In this document: piece by piece, positions 5,141 to 58,168 of the stretch
Layout: every line of letters begins with the position of its first letter
Position numbering within the stretch: position 1 is the stretch's first letter
Assembly: GCF_029873635.1 (NCBI RefSeq)
Contig: NC_080422.1
Coordinates: 17,514,049-17,578,048 of the forward strand
Origin: Malania oleifera
Taxonomy: Eukaryota > Streptophyta > Magnoliopsida > Santalales > Ximeniaceae
DNA length: 64,000 bases
Direction: 5' to 3'
Translations under genes and position numbers: made by a program
The notes under the pieces: model-generated
The model's input: only the letters and a program-made list of their open reading frames with translations
The model's database searches: none
What the model was told of the DNA's origin: nothing

Positions 5141-6223
5141 CTTTGATTTACCATGATTCAGAAATAATCGTAATAACCATAAGGCTGTATAAACTGTACT
5201 GTAATTCATATGTCGTAATACTGAGAACTAAATATTCATAACACTAAAATTACATAATCATAATACTGATATTTGTGTAATCATGTTACCGAGATTTGTA
5301 TAATCATGGTACTAAAATTCGCATAATCATAGTACTGAAATTCGTAAAATCATGAAACTAAATTCGTAAAACATATCCCCGTACCATATACATATTCACA
5401 AGCCACACCATACTAAATACATAATTTTCGTAATTAAATAAATTGTACCATATTTTAATAAATGCCTAACATAACAAATTTCCCTTACCTGACTACTGGA
5501 AAGCCCCTACGGAATACTAGTCTAACACCCGTAGGGCCTCCTACAAAACACCCTGAAAACAATATTCGCCAGAACATAATATCAGTATTTCTCTGCCTAC
5601 ATTATTTTCTATAACTACCATAAGGCCAAAAAGGGACTAAAAGATCTTACCCTGAATTTGGGATGAATTCCAACTTTGTTTTCCCGACGATCAGCTCCAG
5701 CAGATTTGTAGAGAACTCTGCCAGGAGCATCGTAGTAGCTTCGGATCGTCAATTTGGCAACGAGTGGGGCCGGAATCGAAGAGAGAAAGGAGAGGGAGAC
5801 GTAGAGAGAGAGAGGAGAGAGAGAGGCGTGGTGAAAATGATAAAAATCCCGGGTTTCCTCTATTTATAGAGTTAGGTTCATCGACGAGACACATCACCTC
5901 ATCGACGAGTCTTTCATAAATTTCGTCGACGAAACCCTGTATTCGTCGACGAAATTCAGAGCAGCCTAAACCGTCTCTTGGTATTTTCTCATCGACGAAG
6001 CCCTGTGTTCGTCAACGAAATCCTTTATACCTTTGTCAACGAAACCCTGTGTTCGTCGACGAAGCCCTGGAAATTTTTTGAAATTTTTATTTCCCTCAAA
6101 ATGCAATGTCGTCGACGAACGCTCCGCTTTCGTTGACGAAGTCTATGGCCTCCTTCTGTTTCTGTATCCATTTTCTCTCCCTCTTATTATTATTAAAATG
6201 CTATTATTCTTCGGGTCACTGCA
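4214..6223 (-). mobile_element. Solo LTR, Gypsy-like, 2,010 bp
   Basis: It starts TGTAATGACC and ends GGGTCACTGCA, an imperfect terminal inverted repeat with TG...CA ends, flanked by gcaca on both sides. It sits inside the non-coding tail of array unit 1, since the sequence on either side rejoins the homologous tail at 10800-10870. No internal region or second LTR is present, so it is a solo LTR left by recombination between two LTRs. A TATA box on the minus strand (5861-5868, TATAAATA) sets the orientation. The 270 bp upstream of it is packed with TCGTCGACGA-type words. The general layout resembles the Tekay LTR at 15940-16686, so the family is probably a related chromovirus. Confidence 0.85.
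5878..6145 (-). promoter_or_regulatory. U3 array of TCGTCGACGAA words
   Basis: At least ten near-copies of the palindrome TTCGTCGACGAA and variants (tcatcgacgag, ttcgtcaacgaa, ttcgttgacgaa), often followed by accctgt or gccctg. They lie directly upstream of the minus-strand TATA box of the solo LTR. The position suggests promoter elements; this function is inference. Confidence 0.7.
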
Positions 6224-7110
6224 GCACACATCTTCGAAGTACGTCACTCATGCAAGTTTCATCATTATATAGCATTTAACAACAGTATACTCACATGAAG
6301 TTAACTAGTGGTACCATTCAAAGTTAATGCGGTCATATTTGTTTGGGTATAAATAGGTGAAATCTCGAGGTGTGTGTGATGTGTATGCCTCATTACACCT
6401 AAGATACCAACGAACACCTATAGAATGGTCGTTTTGACTCGGTCTAACTGGTATACCCTTTAAAGCACTCAAAAAGAATGGGCTCACTCATCATATATCA
6501 GGAGGAGTGTCACGATCAAACATCCCACATATTGCAATGAACAAACGCTATGTATATGGTGTGGACTAGCCTGAGAAGGATCTAGCCTATCTTTGACGTG
6601 TCGGGTACTTCACCCTAGCATCTTCTCACCTACTTGCCATATCCAACCGAGACAACCCTAGATCAACTTATTCATAAACTGGGCGTGAATACATCTGAGA
6701 CATTAAATGGTTGAAGAATCTTCATACCTAGAGAACATGTGTCGTGTCTTTGACTTTTTTGTGGTATTTCTGTGGAGCAAGCATTAGCATTTCATTTCAT
6801 GTACATTTCTACTTCTTATTCTTTGTTCTACTCATTCTTAACTTTTTGTCTTTTCTTGGTCAGTTAGGAAAGTCATTACACTTCTTTTGTTGTCTTCATA
6901 CCATCAATAGGAATTAAGCTCGAATAGTGGTTCATGAACTAAGTCTATTTCTAAGGGTGGCTCAGCCTTCACATCTTGAGTAGGCTACAAGGCCTAGGTT
7001 TCTATCTCCCCACAAGATGTCACCTCTAGGCTAGCAAATCAAAAACAGAGACTAGTGTACAAAGAATCATCCAGAAGAAAAGAGAATCGAGTTTCGAGAA
7101 CTCTAATTTG
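6224..7110 (-). mobile_element. Non-coding 3' tail of array unit 1, second part
   Basis: It begins with the second gcaca copy and continues the tail domain. It matches 10840-11760 closely in order and phrasing, for example gtacgtcactcatgcaagtt and ggaggagtgtcacgatcaaa. It is not coding. Confidence 0.75.
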
Positions 7111-7140
7111 ATCTAAACTCTCAAAAGGACGATAAATAGC

Positions 7141-8590
7141 TCAAGGAACTAGTGTTTCAGGAAAAGTTGTTGGAACAGTTAACTTTAGTTCTTTTGAAGC
7201 ATTAATATTAAAAGTTTCACCTGGTTCCTTAAAAGTTAAAAATTCAACATTCTGCTCACCCTTTTTATCGGGTGTACCAATCATCTTACTACTGAAGGGA
7301 TTTACTTCAGAATTGGACTCTTTGATAGTTATTCCAGTTGGGAGTGACAGTTCCACAGCTGCAAAGCTATGAGGATAAGGTACCACAGGTTGGCATTCCT
7401 TATTAATATTAGCCTCCTAATTAACTGACTGCTTCGCTTCTAGGCCCGCTTCCTCTGGTTTTTCTTTGACTTCACCTATTTCAATTGTAACTTCAGCCAG
7501 TTGTCTCGCAATAAGCATCTTAGGTTGTTAAACTTCTTTTCTGCTTGTCGAAGTCATGAAAACCTCCATTGTCTCAAAAGAAACATTATATTTTATTTTT
7601 TTGTTGCTACTGGTATTCTTGAGGACTAGGCTAAGGTTCCACTGGAAATTCCTTTTTTTCTAAGATATCCAACTATGTGCTTATCGCATTAGCGGCATCT
7701 AGCAATTCATTTATCTCCTGAGTATACTGATTAATTTGAATTTGCGTGAACTGTTGGAAAGCATCCTTAAGAGACTTCTCTGGTGGGGCAGGTACTGCAT
7801 TAGATTGAAACCTTGACAATGCACAGTTCTGAGGGATTTGTTGTGGCTGATACTGAGGCGAAAGAGTGTCTCGGTAATATGTTGTCTCATAAGTATCTCC
7901 ACCATTGATTGTGCTGATGGGTTGTACTATCATGGGTGCCTAATTGTATCGTGTATTCCATTTTGGGACACTTTCAACTAGATAATCAAAGAATGATAGT
8001 GCCTGATCCGGTTCCTCGCTAAAGAGTTCTTCATTGCACATGGTCTAGACAAAGTGCTTGCAATCAGGAGTAAGAGCTGCATAGAAACAATTAACTAACC
8101 TCCATGATTCAAACACGTGTTGTGGACAAGTACTTAGAAGATCCTTGAATCTTTCATAGCAAGCCCGAAAAGTCTCGTCACCCTGGTGCACAAATAGAAT
8201 GATCTATTCCTACAAAAATTGAGTTCTCTATGAGGGACAAAACCTATGCAGAAATTCAAGCTCCATATCAGCCCAATTAAAGGTAGAGTGAGGTCTCAAA
8301 GAATTAAACTACATCCGTACCATATATTTTAAAAAGGCAAGAAATAAACGCAGTTTAGTAGATTCATCAGTTCTAGCACGAGAGAAAAAAATATTGCAAG
8401 TCAACTCGAACTCTGTCAGGTGCCTATAAGGGCACTCAGATTCTGTCTCGTATAACTGAGGTAACAATGACTTCCTCCTGTGCTGCATCATAAAATTAAG
8501 TTCTTCATTAGGTAAAGTAGTGTAAGATGGTGCAGTAGTATATTGAAGCTACAAAAAATCCATAAGTGTGCATGGTGCAGGTGCAGCCAT
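7141..8590 (-). mobile_element. gag region of array unit 1 (fossil)
   Basis: Minus-strand gag-like region, from a start near 8590 (MAAP context) through the core ECPYRHLTEFELTCNIFF, typical of Gypsy Retrotrans_gag domains (a helical matrix/capsid segment), to a proline/threonine-rich C-terminal part ending near 7141 (PTTFPETLVP). The same three blocks recur at 12510-14059 and, more diverged, at 37635-39294. No zinc knuckle or enzyme domain is seen. It is a broken copy and acts at most as a fossil. Confidence 0.75.
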
Positions 8591-8693
8591 AATATTTTCA
8601 AAGCTCAATTCTTTTTTTTTTTTTCCTTTTCTTTTTTCATGATACTAATTAAAATGATGGGAAAAACATTAATTTGAGAGTAAGATAAACATT

Positions 8694-8710
8694 CCCTGGC
8701 AACGGCGCCA
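8694..8710 (-). other. Primer binding site (tRNA-Asp type)
   Basis: The minus strand reads TGGCGCCGTTGCCAGGG. This matches the 3' end of plant tRNA-Asp (CCCCGGCAACGGCG plus CCA) with one difference. It lies 6 bp inside the LTR-B edge at 8717, where reverse transcription of minus-strand DNA would be primed. Confidence 0.85.
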
Positions 8711-8716
8711 AAAACT

Positions 8717-9554
8717 TGACTCACTTGAAAAATGAGCAGCTTGGGAGTTGTCCCAAGCATAGGAGTTCTGTCGTGTAATATTCAGCCCAAAGGCCAGATT
8801 GTCTCCTCGGGGAATGTGGTTTAATTTCAAATTTTATGTATTTCAAATCGAAAATAAAATGTCACCCAACTCAGTTTAGATTCAGGGCTTTCAGGATTGT
8901 TGAGATTTCCTTTGAAAAGTTAAATGAACATGCAAATAAAACCCTAATCCTAGCATGCACTAAATTAAATAACAAGAAACTATAAACCTACGTCTAATCA
9001 TGCAAGAATTTAAACATGCATTGAACTTCAGAATGGAAACTAAAGATGGTAACTTTAACACATTATTAAAACACGCAATAATGAAAACTCGATCAAACAC
9101 ATTCGCGAATGAATAAAACCGAACTTTTAACAAAATTAACAACTTGAATCAAAAACAAACTTAAACACAAACAATAACTCAACAAAATTTAAAGCTTTAA
9201 CAACTTAAACGATAACTAAACAAGATAAAAATAAGAACTTTAATAAGACTAACCTAAACTAAAACTTCAACAAAAATCAAATTCAAAAAAGTACAACTAA
9301 TTTAATTTCTAAAAAAAAAATAATATATTTTTCTTTTTGAATTTTTTTTTAAGAACCAAACCGGATTTACTTAATTAATTAAATAACTCGAATCACTAAT
9401 TAAATCTATAGCTAAATTTACTTGAAAGAAAATAAACAAATAAATAAACTTGAATAATAATAAAACCCCCTAAACAATATTCAAAACTTAAAATTTCAAA
9501 TAAACCTCAATAAAAATTTTTTTAACAAAATTCAATTAAGATAAAAAAAAAAGG

Positions 9555-9598
<44 letters not shown>

Positions 9599-10665
9599 TG
9601 TGGAGTGGATGCTGCAGCAGGATGCAGTGGGCAGTGGCTTTGGGTGGCTGGCAGGAGAAGGAACTCTTCACTACAGCAGCCGCAATAGGGTTTTGAGGGG
9701 ATTGCAACACTCCATGAGCAGCAAGACAAGTGGCCGAAGGGCTTTGGCAGCACAAGAGAAGGGCAGAGCTTCAGTTGTTCTGGAGAGGCAACAGCAGCTT
9801 CAGGGTTCATCAGCAGGCTCTCATGGGTCTTGGAAGATTCAAAGCACCTCCAGCAATGGCAACAACAGGTAGGGGCTCAGGGTGATTAGCAACGGCTGCT
9901 TGTTGAAGGAAGATAGGGAGCAGTTGGAGGAAAAGAAAGGAAGGGGAGGGAGGAGAGACAAAAAGAAGGAGAGAATAAAGGAGGACTGAGAGTGTCGCAG
10001 AGAAAATGGAGAAAGAGAAAGGGTCCTTAAGGTTGGCAGAGAAGAAAGGGAGATAAAGAGAATGAGAGATTGAGAGAGGGAAAGGAAGGAGAGGCTGCCG
10101 AAAGGGAAAGAAGAAGGAGAGGCAAAGGAAGAAGAAGGAGAGGACTATGAGAGCTTCCCCCAAGGAGAAGAAAAAAGGGAGTTGTATAAGAGGGAGGGGA
10201 GACTGAGACCTACCCACCAAGAGACCAGGACAAGAGGCCCTGATTTGGCTACATGACTGGGTCGCATCAAGGCCATGTTTAAATTTTTGTTTCTTTTTTT
10301 CCTCATTTATTTTTTCTCTGTGAACGAGGCCAATCTTGACCCTCCTGGAGCATGTTTCTCTCGAATCTCAAAACATAGAAGTTGTACATAATATTCTCAT
10401 ATTTCTCCATAATTTTGAATCATCTCGATCGAAGCTCTAACGGAAAGATTATGCACAAATTACGAATTGATGCCGATTTTAGCTCCCGATAATTTTCTTA
10501 CGATAAAAAAAAAAATGCCAAAAATTCATAAATTGCTCAATAAAACCCAAGGATTATAAATAAGACACAACTTTAAAATATTTAAAGTAATTGGGTATTT
10601 AGCTAAAAATATAAGTCCCAATGCATTAATTAAACACCTAATTACGCAGTTTAAGCGCATAATCA
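8717..10665 (-). mobile_element. LTR-B (central LTR of the array)
   Basis: A 1,949-bp LTR with TGACTCAC...CATAATCA ends. It contains the GA microsatellite at about 9562-9594 and a GC-rich leader (9600-10210). A primer binding site lies on its left and a polypurine tract on its right (10666-10673). It therefore serves as 5' LTR for unit 1 and 3' LTR for unit 2, which is the diagnostic feature of a tandem array. Confidence 0.85.
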
Positions 10666-14059: not shown

Positions 14060-14164
14060 AATTTTCTCAAAGCTTAATTTTATTTTTTTTTCTTTCTCAT
14101 GAGACTAATTAAAATCACGAAAAAAAAAATGCTAATTTGAGAGTAAGACTGACATTCTCTGGCT

Positions 14165-15934: not shown

Positions 15935-15939
15935 TTCAC
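15935..15939. repeat. Target site duplication, right copy (ttcac)
   Basis: Matches 2049-2053 and closes the array insertion in the Tekay LTR. Confidence 0.85.
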
Positions 15940-16686
15940 CCGATTGATTTTCCCAAATAAGTAGCCAAAACATATTTACAATCGTAAACTACATGTTTAC
16001 CAATTACGATTTCAAAAATAACTGACATACACAAAATCTCCTTCCCTTTTCCTGAATACCAAAATACGAACTTTATGGCTCCAAAACTACTAATCAAGTT
16101 CCCAAAAGCTTAACAACGAAGAACAATACTTCCTTACATTACTATTCTCTACAATTGTACTGAAACGAAAACGGATTCAGAGCCTTACCTTGGTTTCAGG
16201 TCAAAATCGAAAAATCCTCAAAACGAAGTTCTGATCCCTTATAAACGTAGAGATTCATCCCCTGATCCACGCAATAACATCTGATCATTGAATCAAGCAA
16301 CGAACAACAAAGAATCAAAAAGAGAAGGAGAGATTCCACTATTTCTAGAGAGAGAGAGGGAGAGTTTGAGTTTACTTAGCCTTTAAGCAAAGCAATAGCA
16401 TATTTATAGCCCCTTTGACCCGGTCAACCTCATTGATGAGCCACAGAAGGAAGTTCTTCGATGCCAAAGTGGCCTCATCAACGAGTCTAAGATTTCAAAA
16501 TTTCCCAAAATCTCTCGTTATCTCCTCGTCGATGAGCTACTAAATCTTGTCGCCGAGCTAATCAAATGACTTTTTGTCGACGAGCAAAGGACCCTCGTCA
16601 ACCAGCCTTGCAAATTTTTATTTTCGTAAATTTTCCTTCTTTCTTCTCATACATTTAATACACCTATCTCGGGTCGAGTTCTTACA
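15940..16686 (-). mobile_element. Tekay-type Gypsy 3' LTR, proximal part
   Basis: It continues the LTR begun at 984. It ends in ttcttaca at 16686, next to a polypurine tract (16687-16698, read AGGAGGGGAGGT on the minus strand). A minus-strand TATA box, TATAAATA, is at 16401-16408. Upstream of it, 16430-16610 carries tcgtcgacgag and tcatcaacgag words. Together the halves give an LTR of about 1.8 kb. Confidence 0.75.
16430..16610 (-). promoter_or_regulatory. U3 cluster of TCGTCGAYGAG words
   Basis: Words such as cattgatgag, catcaacgag, tcgtcgatgag, gtcgccgag, gtcgacgag and tcgtcaacc are spaced over 180 bp. They sit immediately upstream of the minus-strand TATA box of the Tekay LTR. The core is the same as in the solo LTR at 5878-6145. 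Confidence 0.65.
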
Positions 16687-16997: not shown

Positions 16998-17198
16998 TTA
17001 GAACAACTGTGGATATTTTCGGCATATTTCTGTCTCTAACTCCCAAGTAGCTTCCTCAACCGCATGATTCCGCCACAGTACCTTCACTAAGGGTATCTCC
17101 TTAGTACGCAACTTTTGAACTTTACGGTCTAGAATCTGAACGGGTATCTCCTCATACACAAAAACATCACTAATCTCAAAGGATTCATAACTAATCAC
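16998..17198 (-). mobile_element. Tekay integrase C-terminus with chromodomain-like segment
   Basis: The reading VQILDRKVQKLRTKEIPLVK, then VLWRNHAVEEATWELE and RKYPQLF, matches the chromodomain tail of plant chromovirus integrases (W...N....ATWE). In this family the chromodomain steers integration towards marked chromatin. Confidence 0.85.
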
Positions 17199-17199
17199 A

Positions 17200-18091
17200 T
17201 GCTACGGATCCGGCATGTACCTCCTTAACATGGATACATGGAACACATCATGGATCGTCGAGAGAGCTGAGGGTAGTGTAATCCTATAGGCCACCGGACC
17301 CACATGTTCCAGTACTTTGAATGGTCTGATATATCATGGGCTCAGCTTTCCCTTCTTCTCGAATCTCATCACTCCTTTCATCGGAGCGATTCTTATGAAT
17401 ATCTTACCCCCAACCTTGAATTCCAACTCACGGCAGCGAACATCCATGTAACTTCTATCGACTATGAGCTGATTTAATCCTATCCCTAATCAAACCAACC
17501 TTCTCAGAAGCCTACTGTACAAGTTTGGGCCCCAATACCCACCGTTCATCAACCTCATCCCAATATAGAGGAGACTAACACCTTTAACCATACAATGCCT
17601 TAAACGATGCCATCTCAATACTAGCTTGGAAGCTGTTGTTACAGGCAAACTCCACTAATGGTAGACACTGAATCCAACTACCACAGAAGTCCAATAAACA
17701 AGCCTATAACATATCCTCCAAGATTTGTATCATCCTTTCTGGTTGTCCATCGGTCTTGGGGTGGAATGGTGCATGGAAAGTAAACTTCATCCCCAATGCT
17801 TCCTGTAAGCTCTTCAAGAATCAAGAAGTGAACCTCGAGTCTCGATCTAAAACAATGGACATCACTACCCTGTGCATTCTGACTATCTCCTGCACGTACA
17901 AATCTGCTAGCCTACTCAAAGAGTAGCTAACCTTCATCAGTACAAAGTGAGTAAATTTAGTCAACCTGTCCATGATTACCTATATGGCATTCTGCTTGTG
18001 TAATGCTGGTGGTAATCCGGTGACAAAGTCAATGCAAATATGCTCCCATTTTCACTGTGGAATACTCAATGGATGCAACGTCTATGTCGGC
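17200..18091 (-). mobile_element. Tekay integrase region, downstream part
   Basis: Minus-strand traces of the integrase core and C-terminal region are visible as fragmentary similarity (for instance the HxxGTKLxFSTAFHPQTDGQ-like block around 17760-17850). Bases 17898-18091 are repeated at 21269-21462 on the other side of the inserted LTR. Confidence 0.6.
17898..18091. repeat. 194-bp direct repeat, copy 1
   Basis: It begins acaaatctgctagcc and ends gtctatgtcggc, directly abutting the TG start of the solo LTR at 18092. It differs from copy 2 (21269-21462) at two positions that I can see. The repeat is Tekay integrase sequence, and only one copy belongs there. Confidence 0.9.
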
Positions 18092-21271: not shown

Positions 21272-21462
21272 AATCTGCTAGCCTACTCAAAGAGTAGCTA
21301 ACTTTCATCAGTACAAAGTGAGTAAATTTAGTCAACCTGTCCATGATTACCTATATGGCATTCTGCTTGTGTAATGCTGGTGGTAATCCGGTGACAAAGT
21401 CAATGCAAATATGCTCCCATTTTCACTGTGGAATACTCAATGGATGCAACGTCTATGCCGGC
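21269..21462. repeat. 194-bp direct repeat, copy 2
   Basis: The second copy of 17898-18091. It starts in the shared acaaatctg at the LTR end (gcgACA) and runs into the rest of the Tekay integrase at 21463. Confidence 0.9.
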
Positions 21463-21814: not shown

Positions 21815-22057
21815 CTATCCACCATATAAGTAGTGTCCCCAGATCTTCAGCGCATACACTACTGCCACTAACTCCAGATCATGTGTGGAGTAATTCTTCT
21901 CGTACTCCTTGAGTTTTCGAGAAGCATAAGCAATTACTTTCCCCCATTGCATCAGCACACATCCCAAACCCTTCAGCGATGCATTGCTGTAAATCACAAA
22001 ACCACCATCCTTAGATGGGATGGTTAAAACCGGAGCAATGACGAGTCGGTGTTTCAA
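21815..22057 (-). mobile_element. Tekay RNase H domain
   Basis: The readable segment contains [37 protein letters not shown] and [19 protein letters not shown]. These are standard Gypsy RNase H blocks, with the THDLEL acidic helix. It follows reverse transcriptase in the usual order. Confidence 0.9.
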
Positions 22058-22351
22058 CTCCTAGAAACTTTGCTCGCACTCATCCGTCCATTCAAATCTC
22101 ATACCCTTTCTTGTCAACCGTGTCAAAGGTCCAGATAACTTAGAGAATCCCTTCACAAACCATCGGTAATATCTAGCCAGTCGTATGAAACTCTAAACAT
22201 CCTACATACTCTTAGGTTTCACTCAGTCAACAACTTCTTCTATCTTACCAGGATCAGTTGAGATACCACCCTTGGACACTACATGGCCTAGAAACGCGAC
22301 CTGATTTAGCTAGAACTCGCATTTATTTAGCTTAGCATACAACTTCTTCTC
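22058..22351 (-). mobile_element. Tekay reverse transcriptase/RNase H linker
   Basis: Minus-strand continuation between the RT thumb and RNase H. It includes the region corresponding to the Gypsy block G-x-IV-S-x-GI, written on the plus strand around 22240-22300. Degenerate. Confidence 0.6.
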
Positions 22352-22830
22352 CTATAATACTTGAAGTACGAACCTCAGATGATTCTCATGCTCTTCCGAA
22401 CTCGTTGAGTATACCAAAATGTCATCGATAAACACCACCACAAAATGATCCAGATATTCATGGAAAACTTTGTTAATTAGATCCATAAACACTGTCGGAG
22501 CCTTAGTCAAACCAAAAGGCATGACCAGAAACTTGTAGTGACTGTATCTGGTTCGGAAATTAGTCCTCACAACATCCTTCGTCCTAACTCTCACCTGATG
22601 ATACTCTAATTGTAGATCGATCTTCGAAAAGACCTGCGTTCCCTATAGTTTGTCAAATAGATCATCTATATGAAGCAATGGGTATCGATTCATCACTGTT
22701 ACCTTGTTGATCTTACGGTAATCAATGCATATTTGTATTGAACTATCCTTTTTCCTCACACACAATACAGTAGCTCCCCAGGGTAAAACACTAGGTATGA
22801 TAAATCCCTTGTCTAGTAGTTCTAGCAACT
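22352..22830 (-). mobile_element. Tekay reverse transcriptase
   Basis: The region shows [33 protein letters not shown] and the catalytic block [13 protein letters not shown] (a [FY]xDD motif, here FIDD), all typical of plant Ty3/Gypsy reverse transcriptase. It lies between protease and RNase H, as expected. Confidence 0.9.
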
Positions 22831-23133
22831 ACTCCTTCACTCTCTAAGTTTAGTTGGAGTCATGTGGTATGGAGCTTTAGAAATTGGTGCCTTACCTGGT
22901 AGTAGATCAATAGAAAACACCTCCTAATTAGGAGGTAAGCCGAGTAAGTCTTCCGGGAATAAATCCAGAATTTCGTTAACCACTCAGATATCTTCAAGTT
23001 TTAGATCATCCCAAGGTGGTTCCTTTACGCAAGTTAGGTACCCCTGACAACCCTCCAAAAGTAACCTTCTTGCCTGTATAGCTGATAGAATTTGTGGCAT
23101 CGAACGCACACATGATCCCACAAACTCATACTC
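22831..23133 (-). mobile_element. Tekay protease/RT spacer
   Basis: Minus-strand linker between the protease and the reverse transcriptase fingers. No separate gene. Confidence 0.55.
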
Positions 23134-23538
23134 CTAGTCCCCAGAAGGTCTGAATACTACTACCTTCTCATGACAATAAATCACCGCATAACTAGAGTAC
23201 AACCAATCCATCCCCAGTATGATGTCAAATCCACACATGTCGTACACTACTAGGTTCTCCAGTAGCAGCCTTCCCTGAATAACCACAAGGCAATTTCCAT
23301 ACCTCTTACTACAAATCGTTACACTCCCAGTCGGTGTTGCCACAGACAACCATTCATCCATCATTTGGATTTCAACCCCACACAGTTTCACAAAGCTTGA
23401 AGATATAAAAGAATGGGTTACTCCTGAATCAAATAAAACAACAGCTCGATTCGAAAGAAATAACATGGTACCTGTCACCCCATTTCCCGAATGTTCCGCA
23501 TCTGCTGGAGTAAAAGAGTACACCCTCACCAAAGCCAT
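23134..23538 (-). mobile_element. Tekay aspartic protease
   Basis: A 134-residue segment contains AVVLFDSGVTHSFIS (retroviral-type protease active site DSG) and FDIILGMDWL, the hallmark C-terminal block of Gypsy proteases. This enzyme would cut the gag-pol polyprotein in a live element. Confidence 0.9.
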
Positions 23539-24560
23539 GTTTTCTTGATAGTTTCCCCGAGGAATTTGATTACTTCCACGGTTCTAGCTCTATGCAGGCA
23601 TATTACTCCTCTGTGCCTGGCAATTTCGGGATATGTGGCCTAGTTTACCACATTTGTAGTAGTTACCCCAAAATGGCTTACATTCATCGACGTTTCATTT
23701 ACGAAACTTGGTGCATGGTGTGGAGGATGGATCCCCCTGAGAACCCTGTCGTTCGGTATTCTGAAAATAACCCGAACCATAGTTCTTCTTCTTCTTCCAC
23801 TGTCCCTGTCGAGGACCAGTCTAAGAACTAGAAGATACTGGCCTCTTTTTCTATTCTTGTACCACCTCGTCCCCTTGGAGGTTAGCCTAAAAAATGGTGG
23901 CTTTGTCCAATAGAATAGAAAACTCTCGAATCTGTAGCATACTCACAAGCCTTTGGATGTCCTTCCTTGGATGCTTCTAGAACCTCCAAGTCTTCTCACA
24001 CTCGTTAGAGATCATATATGGTGCAAAACGAGATAGCTCAATATATCTGGCAGTATATCTCTGCACCATCAAGGTTCCCTAAGTCAGGCTTAAGAACTCA
24101 TCAGTCTTCGTATAACGAGTGGAAGCCGGGAAGTATCTCTCGAAAAATACCTCATTAAAGTGGTTCCAAGTCATATCAGATGGACCAACTCTCTACTTCT
24201 CAAGAAGAATCACAACCATCCACCATCTTTCTGCTTCTGCTACCAGCTGAAAGGTAGAATAGAGAACCTTCAGTTAATCAGTGCAGTGCAAAACTTTCAA
24301 TATCTTCACAGTCTTCTGCACACAGTTCTCTATTACTATCGGATCAGGTCCTCCCATAAATGTCGAAGGGTGCATGTGGGTGAACTTCTCTATGGTACAA
24401 CCCGTAGTAGTAGAAGAGTGCTCACTTCTCCTAACGCTATACTCGAGCTCCCGCATAACCTGCCTCATCAAACCTCAAGGCACAAAAGGAGACTCATCAC
24501 TCACAGTCCCATCAAGACCACTATATAAGTTGTTATCATTGGGCTCCATTATGAAAGTAA
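23539..24560 (-). mobile_element. Tekay gag
   Basis: It starts near 24548 (MEPNDNN context). It contains FTHMHPSTFMGGPDP, the conserved N-terminal gag block of Tekay elements, and later a zinc-knuckle-like KCGKLGHISRNC near 23610-23660. Bases 24551-24760 further right are untranslated leader-like sequence without a recognisable primer site. Confidence 0.8.
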
Positions 24561-24759: not shown

Positions 24760-25612
24760 CAAGAACTACAAAATATATGAAGAAAGCACTGCGTACAAGA
24801 ACACTTTCAATCAGAGCAGATTAGCTCAAAATTCAACACCATGTACTTCAAGAATTTAAATACCAATACAAAATAGAATTAAAGCTCAAGTGTAAAGATC
24901 ACCAAGAGTTCTTATGTGAGAAAACTTAGTATGAGAACTGTAGACTTGTGATTTAGCAGCAATTCAGATGAATTCCCCCAGTAAGAGTGTAAGCAATAGA
25001 GAACTTTGAGAGAGATTGAAAGTTTGAATGCAAGAATGTTGTGTGATTGCCTTAGTTATTAATTTTTTGGGTATAGACTTTTTAGAATTAGTTTCCTTGT
25101 TCCCTATGTTACTTGGAGTGTCTACCAAGTTTTTATAACATTCACTTTTGAAAAACAAATCTTTTAGAAAATTCCCGTTAAGTTCAAAAATTTAAATTCT
25201 CATAGAGTCAGTCGGTTAAACAGGCGACTAGGTAGTTCATTTCTTAGAGTCAGTTGGTTGGATAGGCAACTAAGGCCTTTATGTCTACTAGAAATTAATT
25301 CCATTAAATCATCAGTCGACTGACTCAACCATGTTCCAAAATATCATTCAGCTGGACATTGTCAGTTGGCTGAGTAAGGTCAATTCATTTAGTCAGTTGG
25401 CTGAGTAGTTTATTTAACCATTGTATTATTGTCAGTCGGCTGAGTAAACCCACTATAATCTGGTTAGTCAGTTGACCAGTTCATTTTCCTAGTTTTTTAT
25501 TTTTAGTTTTCAAAATTAATTTTGCTCTCTTGCTTTAATCTTTTATAAAAAATTTTATGGGGTTTTAAAATAGGTCTCTAAGTCCATAAATATCCCCTGA
25601 AGAGCTTCAACA
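24760..25612 (-). mobile_element. Probable Copia-type LTR
   Basis: The right edge reads gcttcaaca at 25612, so the minus strand begins TGTTGAAGCTC like a Copia LTR. A minus-strand TATA-like TTATAAAAAC lies near 25128-25142. Repeated GTCAGTCGGCTGAGTAA-like words upstream of it (25205-25480) match the architecture of the Copia LTRs at 45571-58168. The left edge is not sharp. It could be the 5' LTR of the Copia element whose gag is at 1-983. Confidence 0.5.
25205..25480 (-). promoter_or_regulatory. U3 cluster of GTCAGTYGGCTGAGTA words
   Basis: Seven or more variants (agtcagtcggttaaacagg, gtcagttggctgagtaagg, catcagtcgactgactcaa, gtcagtcggctgagtaaac) in 275 bp upstream of the putative TATA site. 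Confidence 0.6.
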
Positions 25613-29000: not shown

Positions 29001-30555
29001 GATTACTAGTAGGCTTGCCAGGGCTTGGGTCCTTAACTACCAAAGATAAAATTTATAAACCTAACTACTCCTAAGTTTAGTAGAACAGTGAGTAAGTCGG
29101 GTGTTGATCCTCATAAACTGGTCTGCATTTGTTAACCACTTATAACCTAGTTTACAATACTTTGTGTAAAAAGTGAAAAGAAGAGATTTTGATTGGGTTT
29201 TCTAACAACTACTTGAAATTAGTAAATCTATATTAACACTACTGCTATAAAGCATATCGTATATTATGAATCACAGATAGATTGACGTGTAAGCTAGCTA
29301 TATCTGGTCAGCTATCCATCTTAGGCTAACGGCTAAGTGAACCATTTGATGGCATAAAGTAGCAAAAGTGCACCAATTGTTTAGGGCACGATCAGGAACC
29401 AGGGTATACTCTATCACAATGATCACAAGATCACCCAGTACATAAACCATGGCCTAATCTGTATAGGTTACTGAATCCCTAGCTAAGTTATCCTTTACCC
29501 TAGGGTATCATCACTCTCAAAAATGTAAACTTGCATAGTATTGAAATGAAAGCGGCAAAGAAAGCATGTAAATAAAAGCATGTAAAGGAAAGCAGTAAAG
29601 GAAAGCATGTAAAAATCATTTAATTGCAACTCGAACGTCTGTCACTAACGACCGGGAATATAATCAAAAGATCATCTATCTACGCAACAGCACAAGGAAC
29701 TCGCAGGATGTCATAGCCTTTGAAGTTTCCTTGCATGAACTAGTGCATGAATTGAAAATAAAACAGTAAATCCTAATTTAAGTGGCTCTTAATGGCTTCC
29801 TACGCCTGTCATTAACTTGAAAGAGGCCAAATAGGAACCATAAGAACATAGACGAAACTACTATTTATACCCATTAAGGTTTATATGGTTTGAATTTCAA
29901 AATATGAAAGCTTGCAGAAAATCTCGTGAAGCAGTTCGCGTCTGTCGACCAAGTCGCACCCCTATTCTCCCATGGTCGCGCCCCGATCAAGCCTCGTGGG
30001 AAATCAGGAATTCAAATTTTGGTCTTCTTGACATAGTCACACTCTTAAGTCTTTTTAGTCGAGATGATGGCCAAGATCTTGATATGGTCGCCCTTCACTG
30101 TTTCCCTAGTCAAGCTGTTGGTCGAGACTCTCAATATCTCTAGCTCGGTTAGGTTTAGTATCTCGACCTAGTCCCGCTTAGCATCACATGGTCAAGCAGT
30201 TGGTCAAACCTTGTAGCATTTCTTTCTCAGTTTGAACCTTGGAGTCTACAAATTGGTTACTTGGTCACCCCAGTGTTAGCTGGTCCCCCACATGGTCGAA
30301 TAGGGTATTCTTTCCTTTGATGCATTAATGCTCTAGGGGCTTAATTGAGCATCTAATTTGAGCTTTGTGAACTCCAATTACTCCCCTGGCTTCTTGTAAT
30401 GATTAACTCTTCGGTTTTAACTTGTTTTTCTTGAAACATGAACAAACCTTGCATAACTCTGAACTATAATTAATAACAAAGCGTAGTTACAAGATAAATG
30501 AAGATAAAATAAAGGTAAATGGGGACCTAAAATAGTGCATTTTAGGAATTCATGA
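29000..30555 (-). mobile_element. Athila-like 3' LTR
   Basis: The right end reads aggaattcatgaca at 30555 (minus strand TGTCATGAATTCC). It is followed by a polypurine tract read AGGGGC on the minus strand and by cgttttgctagttcttgagcaaagc, the phrase typically next to Athila 3' LTRs. A minus-strand TATA box TATAAATAG is at 29861-29869. The left end is approximate. An older element (28111-29000) lies beyond it in the opposite orientation. Confidence 0.6.
29930..30310 (-). promoter_or_regulatory. U3 cluster of GACCAAGTCGCACC / TGGTCGAGC words
   Basis: Recurring gaccaagtcgcac, catggtcgcgcc, atatggtcgccc, gtcaagctgttggtcgag, cacatggtcaagcagttgg and cacatggtcgaa words. They lie upstream of the minus-strand TATA box of the Athila-like LTR. 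Confidence 0.6.
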
Positions 30556-45570: not shown

Positions 45571-47495
45571 TGCTAGCTTTACTATGATACTAAGAGGGGG
45601 GTGAATAGTATTTTTAAAATTAATGCCCTATGTCAGTATCCTAATAGCAGTATATTCACAATTCTAAAGTAAATATAGTGCAAGTAAAGTAAATCAATTG
45701 TAATATGTACCAAAAATTAAATAACGCAATTTAATTAACTAAGCATGCACCAGAAAGCAATAAAGAGAAGTAACACAAAAAAGTGTTATCAAGGTTCAGA
45801 AAATTGCCTACATGCCCACCTTGGCTAACAAGCACAAGGATTACCACTATAATGCTTACTTAAACGGGTGGAGTGACACCTAAACAAATTAGGTCAATTA
45901 GCACAGGGCTGACCTCAACATTTACACAATCTTTACCGGACTGGATTACCTTCCCCTCAGGCCATGCTTGAAAATACAACAATATTCTCTCAATCAAATG
46001 GTACATGGTTTATGCTTTCATGTAAAGTAGATATATACCCACTACGCATAGTCACATACACGCCAATGATATAGATATAGCGTAAGCTCAGTGATGCAAA
46101 TAGTTGTGCTATCAACACTCAATATGGTATAATCAAGGAGATGCTCAATAGTGTTCAATACAAGAAATATCTTGGAATTTAAGCAAAGCACAATTCAGTA
46201 GCAAATCAATATTCCAAAGATATCAATCAGATATTCAAACTAGTTTAAGAAGATTTTCTTCAATGGAATAAGCACAATACAAGTTTGAAAATATTTTTCT
46301 TATTGGAAAATTATTTGCACAACAAAAATATGAGCTATTGGACACTTGCAATAACAATGCAAATATCCTAGGCTTACTTAGTTTATCCCAATACAAGATT
46401 TATAATATTAAAATTTGTAGGATAAACCTAAGCTAAACTCCCTAAAAGTAATATCACAATCAATCACACACATAGGAGTTTGTAGCACACTCTAGTAATC
46501 ATAAGCACTCTAAATATGCTCTCACAATCTCAGAATATATCAAAGAAGTGAAGATTTGAGAGTATTAGACAAAGAGTGTATTTTGAAAAGAGAGGATTTT
46601 TTGGCTAATCAAGTTTCTAATTCTCGCTAATCCTCACAAATGAGCCAATATTTATAGGCTAGGTAAAAAATATAACCGTTTGGGACTTGTTAGGAATTAT
46701 TAGAAAATTTTCAAATAGTTTAAACACCATATATATATAACCCAATTTTACCGCAGTTAAAATAATTTTAACCCGTTGAGGTTCGGGTGGCTGAACTGTG
46801 GTTTGGTCGCCCAAACAGATATAGTCTTAAAAGTTATTTAAATAAGTTACGTCACTCATGTCATGCTTCAAAAACCCAAACAAAAGTTAGTAGCCTCTGT
46901 TCGTAATTTCGGGTGCCCGGTCATAGGTTTGGTGGCCCAAACTCGTTTAATCAGTCACCCGAGGCTCAATTTGAACTACATAGCTCGGTAGCCCGAGTTG
47001 GTGGAATGTCCCTTTCGAAGGGTTCGGGTGCCTAAGGACGGAGTGCACAAATATGTTCCGTCACCCGAGATCCTAAGTCAACTGTTGACTCTTCAATAGT
47101 TCGGGCACCCAAGGAGTTTTGAACTCTTGGGGTACGGTCGTCCAAGCTCTCTCAATTTCCCTAATAATATTCATTTTCGATGCATTTTTAACACTCCTAT
47201 ATTTTGTATGATATGTGTGTGAGTGTTGGGACCTAGAGTTATACTATGGTCTTACCAAGCTTACCATATATCATATATGCATGATATGTAGGTAGGAAAA
47301 TGTAGACCATATCCTCAGTTACTATTATAGACTCATAATACAATAATTGAATTGACAGTACAAATTAAAATCTTTAGAGTGTTCATGTTGCTTTTTAAAC
47401 TTGCACAAACATTTGAAAATCATCAATTACCTAAGTATTTGTCATTATCAAACAAGGTGTGACCTATAAGATCAATAGAATCATATCAATAGGCA
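45571..47495 (-). mobile_element. SIRE-like Copia LTR
   Basis: The left edge carries ctaagaggggggtgaatag, the reverse of the ttcaccccctctta block found near the 3' end of plant SIRE-like LTRs. The right side carries cattatcaaacaaggtgtga, the reverse of the LTR start block (ttgataatgacaaat). A minus-strand TATA box is at 46649-46656, with clustered ggttcgggtgcccgaa-type words upstream at 46785-47145. An expanded G-tract on the minus strand (47496-47511) fits the polypurine tract. No duplication was found at the edges. Confidence 0.65.
46785..47145 (-). promoter_or_regulatory. U3 cluster of TTCGGGYGCCCGAA words
   Basis: gttcgggtggctgaac, ggtcgcccaaac, ttcgggtgcccgg, ggtggcccaaac, gtcacccgag, gctcggtagcccgag, gttcgggtgcctaagg, gttcgggcacccaagg and ggtcgtccaagc. 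Nine or more words in 360 bp upstream of the TATA box. Confidence 0.65.
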
Positions 47496-48200: not shown

Positions 48201-48313
48201 TTATTTGGATTACTTTGCAACATTGTTTATCATGCATTTTCTTATGGGGAGTCTGTTTAAGCATAACCCAAAATTTTTCCTCATGTATTTGTCATTATCA
48301 AAAAGGAGGAGAT
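48201..48313 (+). mobile_element. SIRE-like Copia internal 3' end
   Basis: It ends tttgtcattatcaaaaagga followed by ggagat, the stereotyped end of the internal region and polypurine tract of plant SIRE-like Copia elements, directly before the LTR start at 48314. Confidence 0.75.
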
Positions 48314-48689
48314 TATTGGCTCTATGAGTCCAATCTTGTTTTGATAATGACAAATCCCATAGTATCTTACCTGTATATTGAGATTGTTAATAGGATCGTT
48401 ACTTAGCATGCATGGAAGGTAAAGAAGTCAAAGAAGCCATTAGGAACTTAAAGCATGTACTACCTTACATACTCTATGGAATTAGAAGAGCAAAAGCATG
48501 AAGAAGTTTCCAGTTTTCAGTTGTAATGGGTATTTAGTATTGTTTGTATTTACATATCTTATATGATGTAGTTGGAAGCTCAAAAAGACCTAGATTGACC
48601 TTAGGACACATGCATTTCATGAAAAATCTATTTACATTAGTTCTAACTTGGATGGACATTGTAGAGGCACAATAATTCTGAAAAATAGA

Positions 48690-48895
48690 GGCCTCGTCGA
48701 CGAACATCCTGGCCTCATCAATGAATTCATAAGGCCACTCGGTGACAAATGTTGTGCTATCATCGACGAGAAAATACCGAGAGCTCAAAAATCTTAGATA
48801 GGCCATTCGGTGACGAACTCACGTTATCGTTAAGGAACGAGTGTTGAACACTCGTCGATGAATGTGTGCACTCTTCGACGAGTACGTTGCGTTGG
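48690..48895 (+). promoter_or_regulatory. U3 cluster of TCGTCGACGA words in a Copia LTR
   Basis: cctcgtcgacgaac, cctcatcaatgaa, ctcggtgacaaa, catcgacgag, ttcggtgacgaac, actcgtcgatgaa and cttcgacgag. This is the same word family as in the Gypsy-like LTRs at 5878-6145 and 16430-16610, here in a Copia LTR. Confidence 0.65.
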
Positions 48896-49197
48896 ATGAC
48901 ACTCTAGCGCAGATACAAACGAAAATCTTTTATTTTAAATGATGCAGCAACCAGAAATCTTTCATATGGCCAGAACACTTATAAACATAACCTCTAAACC
49001 TTAGGGCATCACTTTTTTTCATACTTCTTAAGAACTTTGAACATATTACAAAGTTCTTGCCTGCACTCCAAAGCATTCACATCAAGTTTGGGCATTTCGT
49101 GCATTGAGTTTCAAGATCAAAGGGCATTCACTTATATCTTTTGAAAACAACTTGGGTATTGAGGTTTTGTAAACAAAGTATCATTTTTGGTATATTG

Positions 49198-51113: not shown

Positions 51114-51118
51114 ATCTT

Positions 51119-51433: not shown

Positions 51434-53042
51434 TGTTGACTCTATAAGTCTGATCCCATTTTGATTATGATAAAACCAATGTTTCTCACCTGTGCATTGA
51501 GTTTCTTGAATAGGTTCATCCTAAGGATGTACTGTTGGTGGGAACTCAAGGAAGCCATACAAACTATAAAGTTCAAGCTTTATATGGCTCTTGAAGAAGC
51601 AAAGGTAATGAAGACTCTTTTATTGTTGTAATAACATTCAATTCATTTGAGTTTTTAATATAATATGGTCTGTAATAACTACATAATATGCATGATAGGT
51701 TTAATGCTCAAGGCCATAGAGTGACCTTAGGGTTTGATCGACCGATGCTAGGTTTTTGGGCTTAATTAAGAAGCTCAAAAAGGCCTTAGAAAAGACCCTA
51801 GGTCCCTACACTTACACTTAAATTAGTCCCCAAAATCACATATACTATCAGGGGAAACAATTGAATTAAAATAGGACTAAAAGGGCAAAAATTGTGAGAG
51901 CCCTTGGTGTTCAAAACACATCAAGCGATCGAACCATTGACCAATCAGAAAGTTGACTTTGTTTCGGGCGCCCGAAGCAAAATGACGGTAGCATCCACAG
52001 GCAAACGGACATAAATTCTGACTTTTCCCAACAACTCGACTGCCTGAACTCCTACTTTCATTTTACCCTCACGCAACCAAAAGTTCACGTTTGGCATACT
52101 AAACTTTAGACTGGGCACTCGAATCGCCATGTTTTGAGGAATCACCTTGGTCAGCAAACTGAGCCCATATTAGGACACCCAAACTTCAAAAACACATTTT
52201 TGCACTGTCTTTTTGGGCACCCAAACCTTGGATCGGGCACTCGAAACTCTCACGTTGTCTTATTTTTTTTACCATAATTAAGAACGGTTAAATGGGGTTA
52301 ATTTTCTGAAACTGTTTTAAAACTTTTTTAATAATCCCCATTGAGTCTCAATGGTTACTTTTTGAGGAGAAACTATTTATACATTCTCATTTGCCTCAAT
52401 TAGTAAGTAATTAACAAATAGATTAGCACAAAATTCTCTCAATTTCTTACAATTCTATTTGCTCATACTTCACCATTTTTCAAGCAAAAATCGATCATAC
52501 TCTTTTACACCTTATTTGCAAAATAATTTTTAACAAAAAAAGCCTTTCTTTATTGTTCCCCTAACTTGCAAATTAAATAAACTTAAGTTTAATTTAGTTT
52601 TGGGATTGTAGAAATCGAAAGGGAGTACGTTGGTTGATCAATACTTTGCGGAAATCTCAAAAGGAGTACATTGATTGGTTAACATTGAAAGAAAAATTAA
52701 CTAAGAGTTTATTTAAATTCTGAGTTGTTAGGGAATTTGAGTTGTGTTATGCATTGAAGAAACAAATTTCATTACTGCAGGGCTTGAATCAAATACACGA
52801 GGCTGAAAAAGTTCAAAGCTGAATCTTATATCTTTTTTAAATATATTGTGGCTAATTGGTTTGGTTGATTGTGTGGTTGTGGATTGAATAAAAGAACATT
52901 GAATTTTTTGTGATTTCAAAATCAACAAAAAGTCAAGAAATCTTTGAAAGAATTTAAAAGAGGTTAAGAATTCATAAAAAGATTTAGAAGAAATTTTAAT
53001 AACCCAATTCACTCCCCTCTTAGGACTACACCTTAATTTTCA
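51434..53042 (+). mobile_element. SIRE-like Copia LTR
   Basis: It begins TGTTGACTCTATAAGTC, followed by ccattttgattatgataaaa, and ends with cactcccctcttaggactac to aattttca at 53042. A TATA box tatttata is at 52374-52381. TTCGGGCGCCCGAA-type words lie at 51965-52250. The 5-mers at its edges do not match, so it may be part of a compound element or a rearranged copy. Confidence 0.7.
51965..52250 (+). promoter_or_regulatory. U3 cluster of TTCGGGCGCCCGAA words
   Basis: tttcgggcgcccgaagc (a perfect palindrome core), ctgggcactcgaatc, aggacacccaaac, tgggcacccaaacc and atcgggcactcgaaac. They lie upstream of the TATA box at 52374. Confidence 0.65.
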
Positions 53043-53348: not shown

Positions 53349-53379
<31 letters not shown>

Positions 53380-54317
53380 TATTATTTTCATTATTATTAA
53401 TATTATTTTTAACTTTTATTATTATTAGTATTTTTTATTACTATTATTATTATTATTATTTATTTCTGTTATTATTATTATTATTTTGTTTTAGTATTAT
53501 TATTATTATTATTATTTTCATTATTATTACTTTATTACTATTTTTATTAATTTTCTATTATTACAAATTATTTTCTTATATTACTTTGTTATTATTGTTA
53601 TTATTATTTTTATTTTCATATATTATTATTATTACTTTTATTATTATTTTTATTATTTTATTTACATGGGTCTAGGGTTTTTGGGGGATGCCTTTATAAA
53701 GGCTTGAACACGCACAGGGAAGAGGGGGGGCAGCGCAGCACGGCCACCATCGCGACCACACTCTCCACCGTCACCTTCATCTTCTCCATTCTCCACTCTC
53801 CCCATCCTTCCTCACGACTCTCACTCCCTCCAAAATCCGTGCAAGCAGCCGAGCATCCCACGATCATCACTACTGTTTGCACGCACCGCCGCGTTTCCCC
53901 ACAGGCGCCACGCCTCCCGCAGCAGCTTCATCTTTTCCAGCTCCGGCGAGCCACCAACCGCACCACGAACCAGCGAGCCCCTGCCAGCAGAATCCAACCA
54001 CGTCCTCTCCGACAAGTCTCCGGCGACAGCTCTGGCCACCCTCCACTAGCAACTCTCGGCCATCCCATCGGCCCCGTGTATCCCTGCAACTCCGACGAAC
54101 CTGCAATTCCGGCAACCCCTATACTCCGGCCCGCTCCAGCAATCCAGCCCTGAAGACCTCTTCCGGTGCCCCCCTCTACAACTGCTGCTGCTGCTGCTGC
54201 CTCCCTGAACACAGCCCCTCTGGTAAGTTTCCCTGATCTCTGCACACACTCACGCACACTGTGCACACACAGACCACCCTCACTCACAGATATACACAAT
54301 TGCTTTATGGATTAGTG

Positions 54318-54355
<38 letters not shown>

Positions 54356-56263: not shown

Positions 56264-56614
56264 TGTGTTAAGTGTATAAACAAGTTCATTTTTCTAAACA
56301 TGGATGAAAAATGAGAAATGGAAGTCGAAAAGTAGTTAAATACGCACACCATCCGGTGCAATCCATGAAATTGCGAAAGAGCAGAGCATGAAGATTTTTG
56401 TTTCAAGTTGTATTGTATTGCGTTATATTTTCTTTGGGTCTATAATAATCATATGGTCGTAATAATTTGCATCTCGTGCATAATAGATATTTATGCTCAA
56501 GATACCTTAGAATGACCATAGGAACCACCACCTCTCAAACCTAAATGTTATAACTTATTCACACATGGTTAAATAAGTTCAAGGACAAAAATAGGGCTTA
56601 AACAGAGTGTTAAA

Positions 56615-56945
56615 AATGGTTCGGGCGACCGAATGTTCAAAGAGTCAACAAATTGACTGCGGCCCGGGCGACCGAACCTATTTTGGACTAAAAATCCATG
56701 GTCAACCAAACATAAGAACGGTCACTTTTTTCCTTCCCCAGGCGCCCAAACTCTAAGTTCAAAATAGCCCCGGGTGACCAAATTATGAAGTTCGGCAGAC
56801 CAAATTGACCACTGGGTGATCAAACCTCAAGTGCTTAGGGAAATCGTCTTAGCTCAACCACCTGAACTTCTCCTCGAGCACCCGAACTTGAAAAAAGTCC
56901 CTTTTCTCTGTGTGTCTATTCGGGCGACCGTCCCTAAGGAGGGCA
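56615..56945 (+). promoter_or_regulatory. U3 cluster of TTCGGGCGACCGAA words
   Basis: ggttcgggcgaccgaatg, cccgggcgaccgaacc, caggcgcccaaac, ccgggtgaccaaa, ctgggtgatcaaacc, cgagcacccgaac and attcgggcgaccg, within 330 bp upstream of the TATA box at 57066. Confidence 0.65.
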
Positions 56946-58168
56946 ACCAAAAGTCTCAGACTGCCTTATTTTTACCATGGTTAATTTAGGGTAATTTGGG
57001 TTAAACTTTAATTTAACAATTTCAAAATAACAAATAGGTCACCAACGGTCATTTTTTTAAGGACATCTATAAATACACTTTCATTTGTCCTGATTAAGTA
57101 GAGATTAGCTAAAGTGATTAGCAAATTTCCTCTCAAATTGTTATACTTCTTTTGCTATATACTTTACATTCCAAGCACATATTTTTTTAATACTCTCTTT
57201 GATACTCACTTGAAAATATCTTTTTGATACTCATTCTCTTGACAAATACTCTCACATACTCATACATTTTAAAAATTTATTTTTGAGAGTTCTTACTTGT
57301 TTGATCTTTCCTATAATATTTCATATATAAATATTTGATTGGGAATATCTTGTTTTTGGTTTGCTAGTCTTGGCATTCAAATTGCAAGACTGAAAGCTTG
57401 CATATAATTTTTGATATTTTTTTGCAAGCCTCAATCCAGAATATCTATTGTGCTTTACATTTAGAACATCCTTGAGATATTTTATTTGGGTTGTGTTGAA
57501 CTTCCTTTGATTATTCATTCGTTGAATATAATATCTTATATCAAAGGTTGTACTCGCACTTATACATACACTCTTACATCTTAGAGAGTTCACATATTGG
57601 ATCTCACTTGAGCATTAAATCCATATCATCTATGAGTGCACATATTTGAATCATATTATTGTACAAATCTGCTTGTGTTAGAAACACCTTTACTTGTACG
57701 AAAAAGTTAATTTGATTGTAATCCAGTCGTTGCCTGAGGTGGGAATTCTCTGCCCCTTAAGGAGTATTAAGCCCTTCTCCGCCCCGTAAGGAGAGGTTGT
57801 AAAGGTTGAGGTCAGTCTTGGTAATTTGACTTGGTGATGTAAACGGTGCCGCTTCACCTGTTAAGTAAGCATTAGTGGAATCCTCAGGCTTGCGAGCTAA
57901 GGCAGGGACGTAGGTAGTATTGGTCGAACCCCGATAACATACCATGTGTGCACTTTACATTTCCGCAATTTATTTACTGCACATATATGTTATTTTAAAT
58001 TGACTAAGAATGCTGCGCATGATTTCATTTCCGCACATTATATTTATCTACACATTTGGGATTGCATAGACAGCCGTTAAGTTGTAAAATACTGTTATTT
58101 ATATAAATTGACATAGGAAAATTTAAATTTCCATTTCACCCCCTCTTGGGAACATACCAATTCCAACA

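Follow-up and report, generated by a model that had tools for sequence, protein, structure and literature searches.

A stretch of 64,000 nucleotides from the genome of Malania oleifera (contig NC_080422.1, positions 17,514,049 to 17,578,048, referred to below as the window) contains eight long terminal repeats (LTRs) of retrotransposons in each of which a short word is repeated many times in a cluster near a TATA-like sequence. The loci are designated by letters, with the starting positions of their clusters in parentheses: A (5878), B (16430), E (25205), D (29930), C (46785), F (48690), G (51965) and H (56615). Superfamily was assigned from Pfam domains for A and B, which are Ty3/Gypsy, and for F, which is Ty1/Copia, and C, G and H are called Sirevirus-like from the relatedness of their LTRs and from their word. 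The central observation is that the families of A, B and F carry the same word, TCGTCGACGA, in arrays of nearly the same geometry in many copies across this one genome. A sequence-only reading of the window had proposed that word clusters lie upstream of the TATA box in all eight LTRs and share a function across unrelated superfamilies; the observation is confirmed in part, and its interpretation is partly supported.

Eight word clusters in the window

A TATA-like sequence, read directly, lies downstream of the cluster on the LTR strand at all eight loci, as had been proposed, at distances of 9 bp (A), 21 bp (B), 67 bp (E), 44 bp (D), 128 bp (C), 84 bp (F), 123 bp (G) and 112 bp (H). Locus C has an additional TATATA 45 bp from the cluster, the TATA-like box at G is TATTTATA, and TATA-like words also occur within 300 bp upstream of the cluster at two of the eight loci. 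The words had been described as inverted halves around a CG-rich centre that differ from family to family. CpG density is 5.14 per 100 bp inside the clusters versus 1.80 elsewhere in the window, and the words are wholly or partly palindromic at seven loci, the fitted word having 6 of 6 complementary pairs at A, 5 of 6 at B and F, 5 of 7 at E and G, and 4 of 7 at C and H; the inverted design does not hold at D, where the word is a direct repeat with 2 of 5 pairs. The claim that the words differ by family stands only in part, since TCGTCGACGA is the repeat unit at three loci of two superfamilies (A, B and F), and the three loci with a TTCGGGCGACCGAA-type word (C, G and H) have related LTRs. The TYGACCA words of array D are often paired about 12-14 bp apart in one direction, a design unlike that of the other seven clusters.

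Enrichment over chance was found for some of the loci and depends on the measure used. When 832 palindromic 10-mers were scanned blindly over 638 windows of 300 bp, A, E, F and B reached z values of at least 5.5 and H one of 4.0, with equal rank for a non-LTR repeat at 31600, a 68-bp satellite at 43300 and a TACA repeat (16701, ~16.9 kb); in the same scan C, G and D did not stand out for the claimed word. Leave-one-out motifs detected 10 sites at C, 11 at G (two of them outside the array) and 11 at H, compared with shuffle means of 1.5-1.9 and maxima of 5-7, in a test which is not fully independent because the three LTRs are related. A count with retrained motifs, which proved too permissive, did not separate most loci from shuffled sequence (at A, for example, 10 sites against a mean of 7.2 and a maximum of 13), and neither this count nor a free expectation-maximisation search could decide E, D or G singly.

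The C, G and H LTRs align over much of their length, and their arrays consist of 11 positions with near-equal gaps, in outline 43-33-39-33-22-20-42-20-44-20, of which two ranks have decayed in C and two in G. Their alignments contain 5.6-10.9 gap columns per 100 aligned inside the array versus 21.9-51.0 outside it, and word identity (0.63-0.67) differs little from spacer identity (0.58-0.62). The word is of the TTCGG-NNNN-CCGAA type with a CGG-CCG core, occurs at 9-11 sites upstream of the TATA box and, as far as its letters can indicate, fits the published repeated-motif (RM) boxes of Sireviruses (PMC2829016).

Table 1. Positions of the arrays, TATA boxes and associated element features in the window
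Feature	Position	Strand	Description
Locus A insertion	4214..6223	-	LTR-sized, TG...CA ends, 5-bp target duplication GCACA (self-comparison, junctions)
TATA box of LTR A	5863..5868	-	Direct reading
Array A	5878..6140	-	Word TCGTCGACGA, 10 sites, gaps in LTR order 21-56-20-24-20-46-20-24-21
TATA box of LTR B	16403..16408	-	Direct reading
Array B	16430..16604	-	Gypsy LTR, 7 readable sites, gaps 21-27-21-51-20-25
Element B chromodomain piece	17001..17201	-	Pfam Chromo 6.6e-06
Element B broken Ty3/Gypsy pol pieces	21818..23583	-	RT_RNaseH, RVT_1, RVP_2, each searched separately
Array E	25205..25480	-	Directional, partly palindromic word near TCAGYCGACTGA, irregular spacing
Array D	29930..30310	-	Direct repeats of TYGACCA word, not palindromic
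Array C	46782..47146	-	Sirevirus-like LTR, word near TTCGGGCGACCGAA, 9 of 11 ranks readable
Locus F junction	48287..48355	+	Inverted repeat arms 48287-48303 and 48339-48355 around AGGAGGAG, like a polypurine tract (PPT), and AT
Array F	48694..48882	+	Copia LTR, word TCGTCGACGA, 8 sites, gaps 21-24-21-47-20-25-20
TATA box of LTR F	48980..48985	+	Direct reading
Array G	51920..52245	+	Sirevirus-like LTR, 9 of 11 ranks readable
Array H	56620..56951	+	Sirevirus-like LTR, 11 sites
TATA box of LTR H	57068..57073	+	Direct reading

The array common to Gypsy and Copia families

Because copies were not to be selected by their arrays, the source genome (1.494 Gb, 510 contigs) was searched with queries taken from LTR sequence outside the array. 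The upstream part of F gave 41 matches (best 40 of 3211 candidates scored), with 29 of 39 non-window loci examined; the U5 part of A gave 40 matches (the best of 10315 candidates) and that of B also gave 40 (the best of 4766), with 20 of 39 loci examined for each. The examined copies are the better-preserved ones, because they come from the 40 with the best scores among 1492 to 10315 first-look candidates. The array is present in all 69 of the non-window copies chosen by these other LTR parts (20/20 A, 20/20 B and 29/29 F, with 6-9 sites called in each B copy), which excludes, for the three families covered by the copy-level check, the possibility that the words are restricted to the few copies first seen. 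The 30 loci found through the F array, the window's included, all lie in F-like LTRs, and the 8 found through the A array all lie in A-like LTRs.

The geometry shared by the three families consists of two tetrads of words, each spaced 20/21-24/25-20/21 bp, which are joined by 46-48 bp. The modal gaps obtained by template fitting are 20-24-20-46-20-24-21 for A, 21-25-21-48-20-24-20 for B and 21-24-21-47-20-25-20 for F, and sites called without the template agree with them. Over its 80 word letters the eight-word template has 3-32 mismatches to the copies, compared with at least 39 to letter-shuffles (10 per family), and free site calling recovers the 20/21-24/25-20/21 run in 19/20 A, 19/20 B and 23/29 F copies. 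The distance from the start of the last word to the TATA-like box is mostly fixed within each family, at 19 bp in all 19 of the A copies in which a box was found (20 examined), 31 bp in 13 of 18 such B copies (20 examined) and 108 bp in 14 of 19 such F copies (29 examined). For the window copies, the F run is reproduced to within 1 bp by 0.4% of permutations of the A gaps, and nine gaps drawn from the pooled gaps contain it at a frequency of 8.5e-5.

The assignment of B to the Ty3/Gypsy chromoviruses is based on a Gypsy reverse transcriptase (RT), RNase H, protease and chromodomain; no relatives of its RT piece were found in viral contigs. The window copy of A has no coding part, and the Gypsy pol assignment of its family comes from one copy, L073, in which one of three scanned pieces upstream of the LTR matches SH3_Tf2-1 (1.5e-24). 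Downstream of the TATA box, the A and B LTRs have an alignment score reached by none of 200 shuffles, in an alignment which starts in CT-rich sequence; their first 75 bp are not significantly alike (53/200 shuffles). Both presumably belong to the Del/Tekay lineage. The insertion at locus A is absent from a duplicate of the surrounding unit, where the empty site lies at 10839-10843. This long unit occurs about three times between 2054 and 15941 (2054-4213, 8717-10843 and 14162-15941, with continuations), locus A being inserted in one copy and missing from another.

The F family has the multiple PPTs, the PPT-flanking inverted repeat and the Ty1/Copia pol that characterise Sireviruses. Upstream of one F copy, L110, five of seven pieces matched, with RVT_2 (2.9e-29), SH3_retrovirus, Pol_BBD and gag_pre-integrs among the domains; three further pieces from copies L105 and L108 gave no domain match. 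In the window copy the junction arms are two perfectly complementary 17-nt sequences, and the left arm, with at most 2 mismatches, lies at equal distance in 9 of 30 family loci, counting the window copy. PPTs of the form AGGGGGAG occur upstream of the LTR in 3-5 copies at 5 of the 30 loci and at least once at 9; no such tract was found within the examined 1.5 kb at the other 21, some of which may be 5' LTRs or truncated. The upstream part of the F LTR is Copia-like, with z values of 14.7 to G, 6.4 to H and 4.7 to C. Among the seven LTR regions compared, the F array finds a match in A (z 18.5) and in B (z 11.6) but not in C, G or H, and the downstream part of the F LTR is matched by none of these regions. 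The word TCGTCGACGA of F lacks the CGG-CCG core of the RM boxes, as does Tnd-1 in Table 3 of PMC2829016. A and B depart from the RM boxes in their host, having Gypsy domains instead of those of a Sirevirus.

Spacer divergence and the interpretation of the arrays

The words of the three families are set in spacers which have diverged. Short-spacer similarity at equal versus unequal rank is 0.45 versus 0.46 for A-F, 0.43 versus 0.45 for B-F and 0.46 versus 0.41 for A-B (15 copies per family in these comparisons), and the geometry has therefore outlived the filler, since the short spacers are no more alike at equal rank. With the words left unmasked, the alignment score is reached by 0/500 shuffles for A-F, 88/500 for A-B and 10/500 for B-F. 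A 13-nt box after the fourth of the eight words is common to A and F, with at most 3 mismatches (median 1) in all 240 copy pairs, which represent 30 F by 8 A rows chosen by their arrays, window copies included. In B the window copy has 3-4 mismatches to this box, and the best match anywhere in the 20 other copies has 3-5 mismatches and directly follows a word in 9 of them. The box, AAAATACCRAGAG, which lies at 48771-48783 and in the family copies of Copia F and Gypsy A directly after the fourth word, is not palindromic. The word, the spacing and the A/F box persist and the filler does not, which would be expected of an assembly that reads distance, not of recent copying or slippage alone.

The arrays are, on balance and only just, probably promoter-proximal cis-regulatory platforms in U3 for a symmetric and probably host-encoded DNA-binding protein, either exchanged between the superfamilies long ago or converged upon. 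Each palindromic word would bind one symmetric (dimeric) protein; in A, B and F, a pair of words at a distance of 20-21 bp, or two helical turns, would constitute a doublet, to be read as a single symmetric unit, a pair of doublets separated by 24-25 bp would constitute a tetrad, and two tetrads would flank a centre of 46-48 bp at a TATA distance which is mostly fixed for each family. The module may have passed between superfamilies long ago and been held by constraint, or it may have been reached twice. The reader would most likely be a host factor, because Gypsy and Copia lineages, which encode unrelated proteins, use the same word with nearly the same geometry. A stronger version, in which a base-pair-exact grammar of eight palindromes is read by one host complex in both superfamilies, and in which a portable module crossed between Gypsy and Copia in either direction or was reached twice, with its geometry conserved past the randomisation of the spacers, is possible but can be advanced only tentatively. 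The shared function that the sequence-only reading had proposed is supported by the common word, the near-identical spacing and the mostly family-fixed TATA distance, but not in the form of eight independent convergences, because C, G and H are homologous and A and B are related downstream of the TATA box and have one type of array.

A number of results weigh against the interpretation of the arrays as conserved regulatory platforms. Since A and B are related, the agreement of the three families amounts to one comparison across superfamilies, and the LTR families compared are only those of the eight window loci. The three modal gap vectors are close but not identical, with differences of 1-2 bp; both tetrads were called in full in 10/20 A, 10/20 B and 8/29 F copies; and permutation of the window-copy gaps gives 0.095 for A-B (tolerance 5) and 0.051 for F-B (tolerance 4). 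With the words masked, spacer similarity is not significant, the score being reached by 47/500 shuffles for A-F, 207/500 for A-B and 35/500 for B-F. With base type matched, the words show no significantly slower evolution than the spacers in the F set chosen outside the array, from which no rows were dropped (p 0.16 for A/T and 0.065 for G/C), or in the sets chosen by array. CpG retention is 0.53 in the words, 0.52 upstream and 0.42 downstream; word CpGs are lost much as upstream ones are, so silent copies show no lasting protection. In C, G and H the identity of the array, 0.615-0.631, is below the 0.663-0.755 of its flanks. Upstream of two A copies, L074 and L075, there are open reading frames that by eye resemble Copia gag, which are taken as neighbouring insertions.

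The outer flanks of doublets, whose words lie 20-21 bp apart, show more complementarity than random word pairings do (P 0.009 for A, 0.007 for B and 0.09 for F, combined 0.0004), in a test which was made after viewing the same data and from which 9 of 70 rows were dropped for poor fit or nearness to an end, leaving 19/20 A, 17/20 B and 25/30 F with the window copy; neither single-palindrome extension nor pairing across other neighbours was raised in this test. Such complementarity would fit either a hairpin or a complex with two-fold symmetry that sits on the doublet. The hairpin belongs to an alternative in which transcripts of the palindromes fold into a secondary-structure or silencing signal that feeds small-RNA production and methylation, as proposed for maize Sirevirus LTRs, where small RNAs map to the palindrome-rich regions (PMC10760457, PMC5311732). 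This explanation appears unlikely: hairpins do not need a fixed TATA distance or base-pair spacing, maize Ty3 elements are described in the sections of PMC10760457 used here as generally without an obvious structure peak, and the mark applied in the maize work, a 110-nt window under -40 kcal/mol, is passed at only one of the eight loci, array A, which reaches -48.1 kcal/mol. Among copies compared with spacer-shuffles (10 of 70 rows dropped; 19 A, 16 B and 25 F used), antisense minimum free energy is below that of the shuffles in 15/16 B and 21/25 F, as hairpins would predict, and sense-strand energy is below it in only 12/19 A, 12/16 B and 12/25 F. Sense-strand doublet pairing exceeds the shuffles in 13/19 A, 8/16 B and 11/25 F copies, with values of 9.9 against 7.4 in A, 8.2 against 7.5 in B and 4.7 against 5.3 in F. 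The copies, when folded, neither settle the matter for the hairpin nor consistently favour the doublets, so that silencing nucleation through RNA hairpins, which had been suggested from the sequence, finds little support.

It is improbable that slippage or recombination merely multiplied a CG-rich U3 word which has no function. Some spacers do repeat, with a 20-bp tandem period at 5995-6069, and the similarity of words at equal rank is hardly above that at unequal rank (0.674 versus 0.660, 0.645 versus 0.628 and 0.659 versus 0.663 in the three comparisons), as homogenisation would give; but a purely mutational amplifier does not predict the alternating 20-21/24-25 spacing that is found over dissimilar spacers in three families, or an array that is present in every non-window copy with gaps mostly the same. 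Little probability likewise attaches to a simple recent recombination in which the F family copied a Gypsy U3 segment and constraint is needless. The near-identity of the A/F box and the restriction of the matches of the F array to A and B are what such copying would leave, but the transfer was not recent, because the short spacers are at background similarity and the gaps have nevertheless been kept. The least probable alternative, and a very unlikely one, is that a protein encoded by the element itself reads the arrays in trans as an anti-silencing factor, in the manner of VANC on VANDAL transposons, whose targets are also dense, short, noncoding motifs that differ by family (PMC5735166, PMC10398659); here one word is common to Gypsy and Copia families, in which the domains identified are unrelated, and the words are palindromic, whereas VANC motifs are arrayed in one orientation.

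Known systems and other features of the window

The closest known counterparts are the RM boxes of Sireviruses (Bousios et al. 2010), palindromic CG-rich boxes of CGG-CCG type upstream of the TATA box, which were presented as a Sirevirus feature absent from the other Ty1/copia elements considered in that study and for which the protein reader could not be named (PMC2829016). The later literature, as far as it was covered, also names no reader of such boxes. The present arrays resemble RM boxes in having at least 8 short palindromic words per element, with LTR copies mostly in the upper half and upstream of TATA, in being CpG-rich with a word that varies by element, and in the CGG-CCG signature (TTCGG...CCGAA) of C, G and H. 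They differ in that Ty3/Gypsy A and B have arrays whose word and geometry are common with those of the Sirevirus-like F, and in their fixed spacing, a grammar not seen for RM boxes in the parts of PMC2829016 consulted. A 2016 study of maize Sireviruses, as cited in PMC10760457 and PMC5311732, likewise reports palindromes that cluster in the regulatory region of LTRs; its main evidence is small RNAs and folding, whereas here folding is mostly weak and spacing is striking. The CpG islands of Del (Ty3/Gypsy) LTRs are alike in being a CG-rich 5' LTR part in a Gypsy lineage (Cruz et al. 2014, PMC4029996), but the eudicot Del studied there is given as having no CpG island, and "palindrom" is absent from the text of that paper. 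The VANC/VANDAL arrays of Arabidopsis share the dense short noncoding motifs, which diverge in step between families, and differ in having an element-encoded reader and a motif in a single orientation, with no array across superfamilies seen in the portions of PMC5735166 and PMC10398659 consulted.

The Tnt1 element of tobacco differs in having few boxes, which are confined to one Copia family. We know of no tetrad geometry in the Tnt1 boxes. Its BI and BII boxes are like the present words in lying in U3, BII binding defence-induced factors (PMC3316501), and a symmetry of box I is cited in PMC2829016. In the open-access literature searched, we found no description of the TCGTCGACGA word, of a comparable array in Gypsy LTRs, of one whose word and geometry Gypsy and Copia LTRs have in common, or of the tetrad spacing; such words were already known in one group of retrotransposons, and the shared ladder with its fixed spacing appears to be new. 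That unrelated Gypsy and Copia families have one word in common, at almost the same spacing, points to host factors, and the doublet or the tetrad would supply a defined probe for pulling out the reader protein. The finding further suggests that a regulatory module is able to pass from one retrotransposon superfamily to another with the coding regions remaining separate.

Several other features were recorded. A scan of viral contigs for paired words gave 70 matches, of which the inspected spacings were multiples of three, and these were taken as viral coding sequence. At 42713-44440 there is a satellite-like array of about 25 copies of a 68-bp unit, with higher periods of 136 and 204 bp. The segment 31400-31880 contains dense inverted words, TTCGTCACTAATA and TATTAGTGACGAA, which by their resemblance may be subterminal repeats of a DNA transposon; nowhere else in the window is the RNA folding energy as low (-68.9 kcal/mol at 31721). 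A 194-bp direct repeat (17898-18091 and 21269-21462), 99% identical and 3.4 kb apart, is possibly a young pair of short LTRs. Pieces of a 2OG-Fe(II) dioxygenase gene (DIOX_N 2e-13, 2OG-FeII_Oxy 5e-12), probably a host gene, lie on the reverse strand at 61230-62508.

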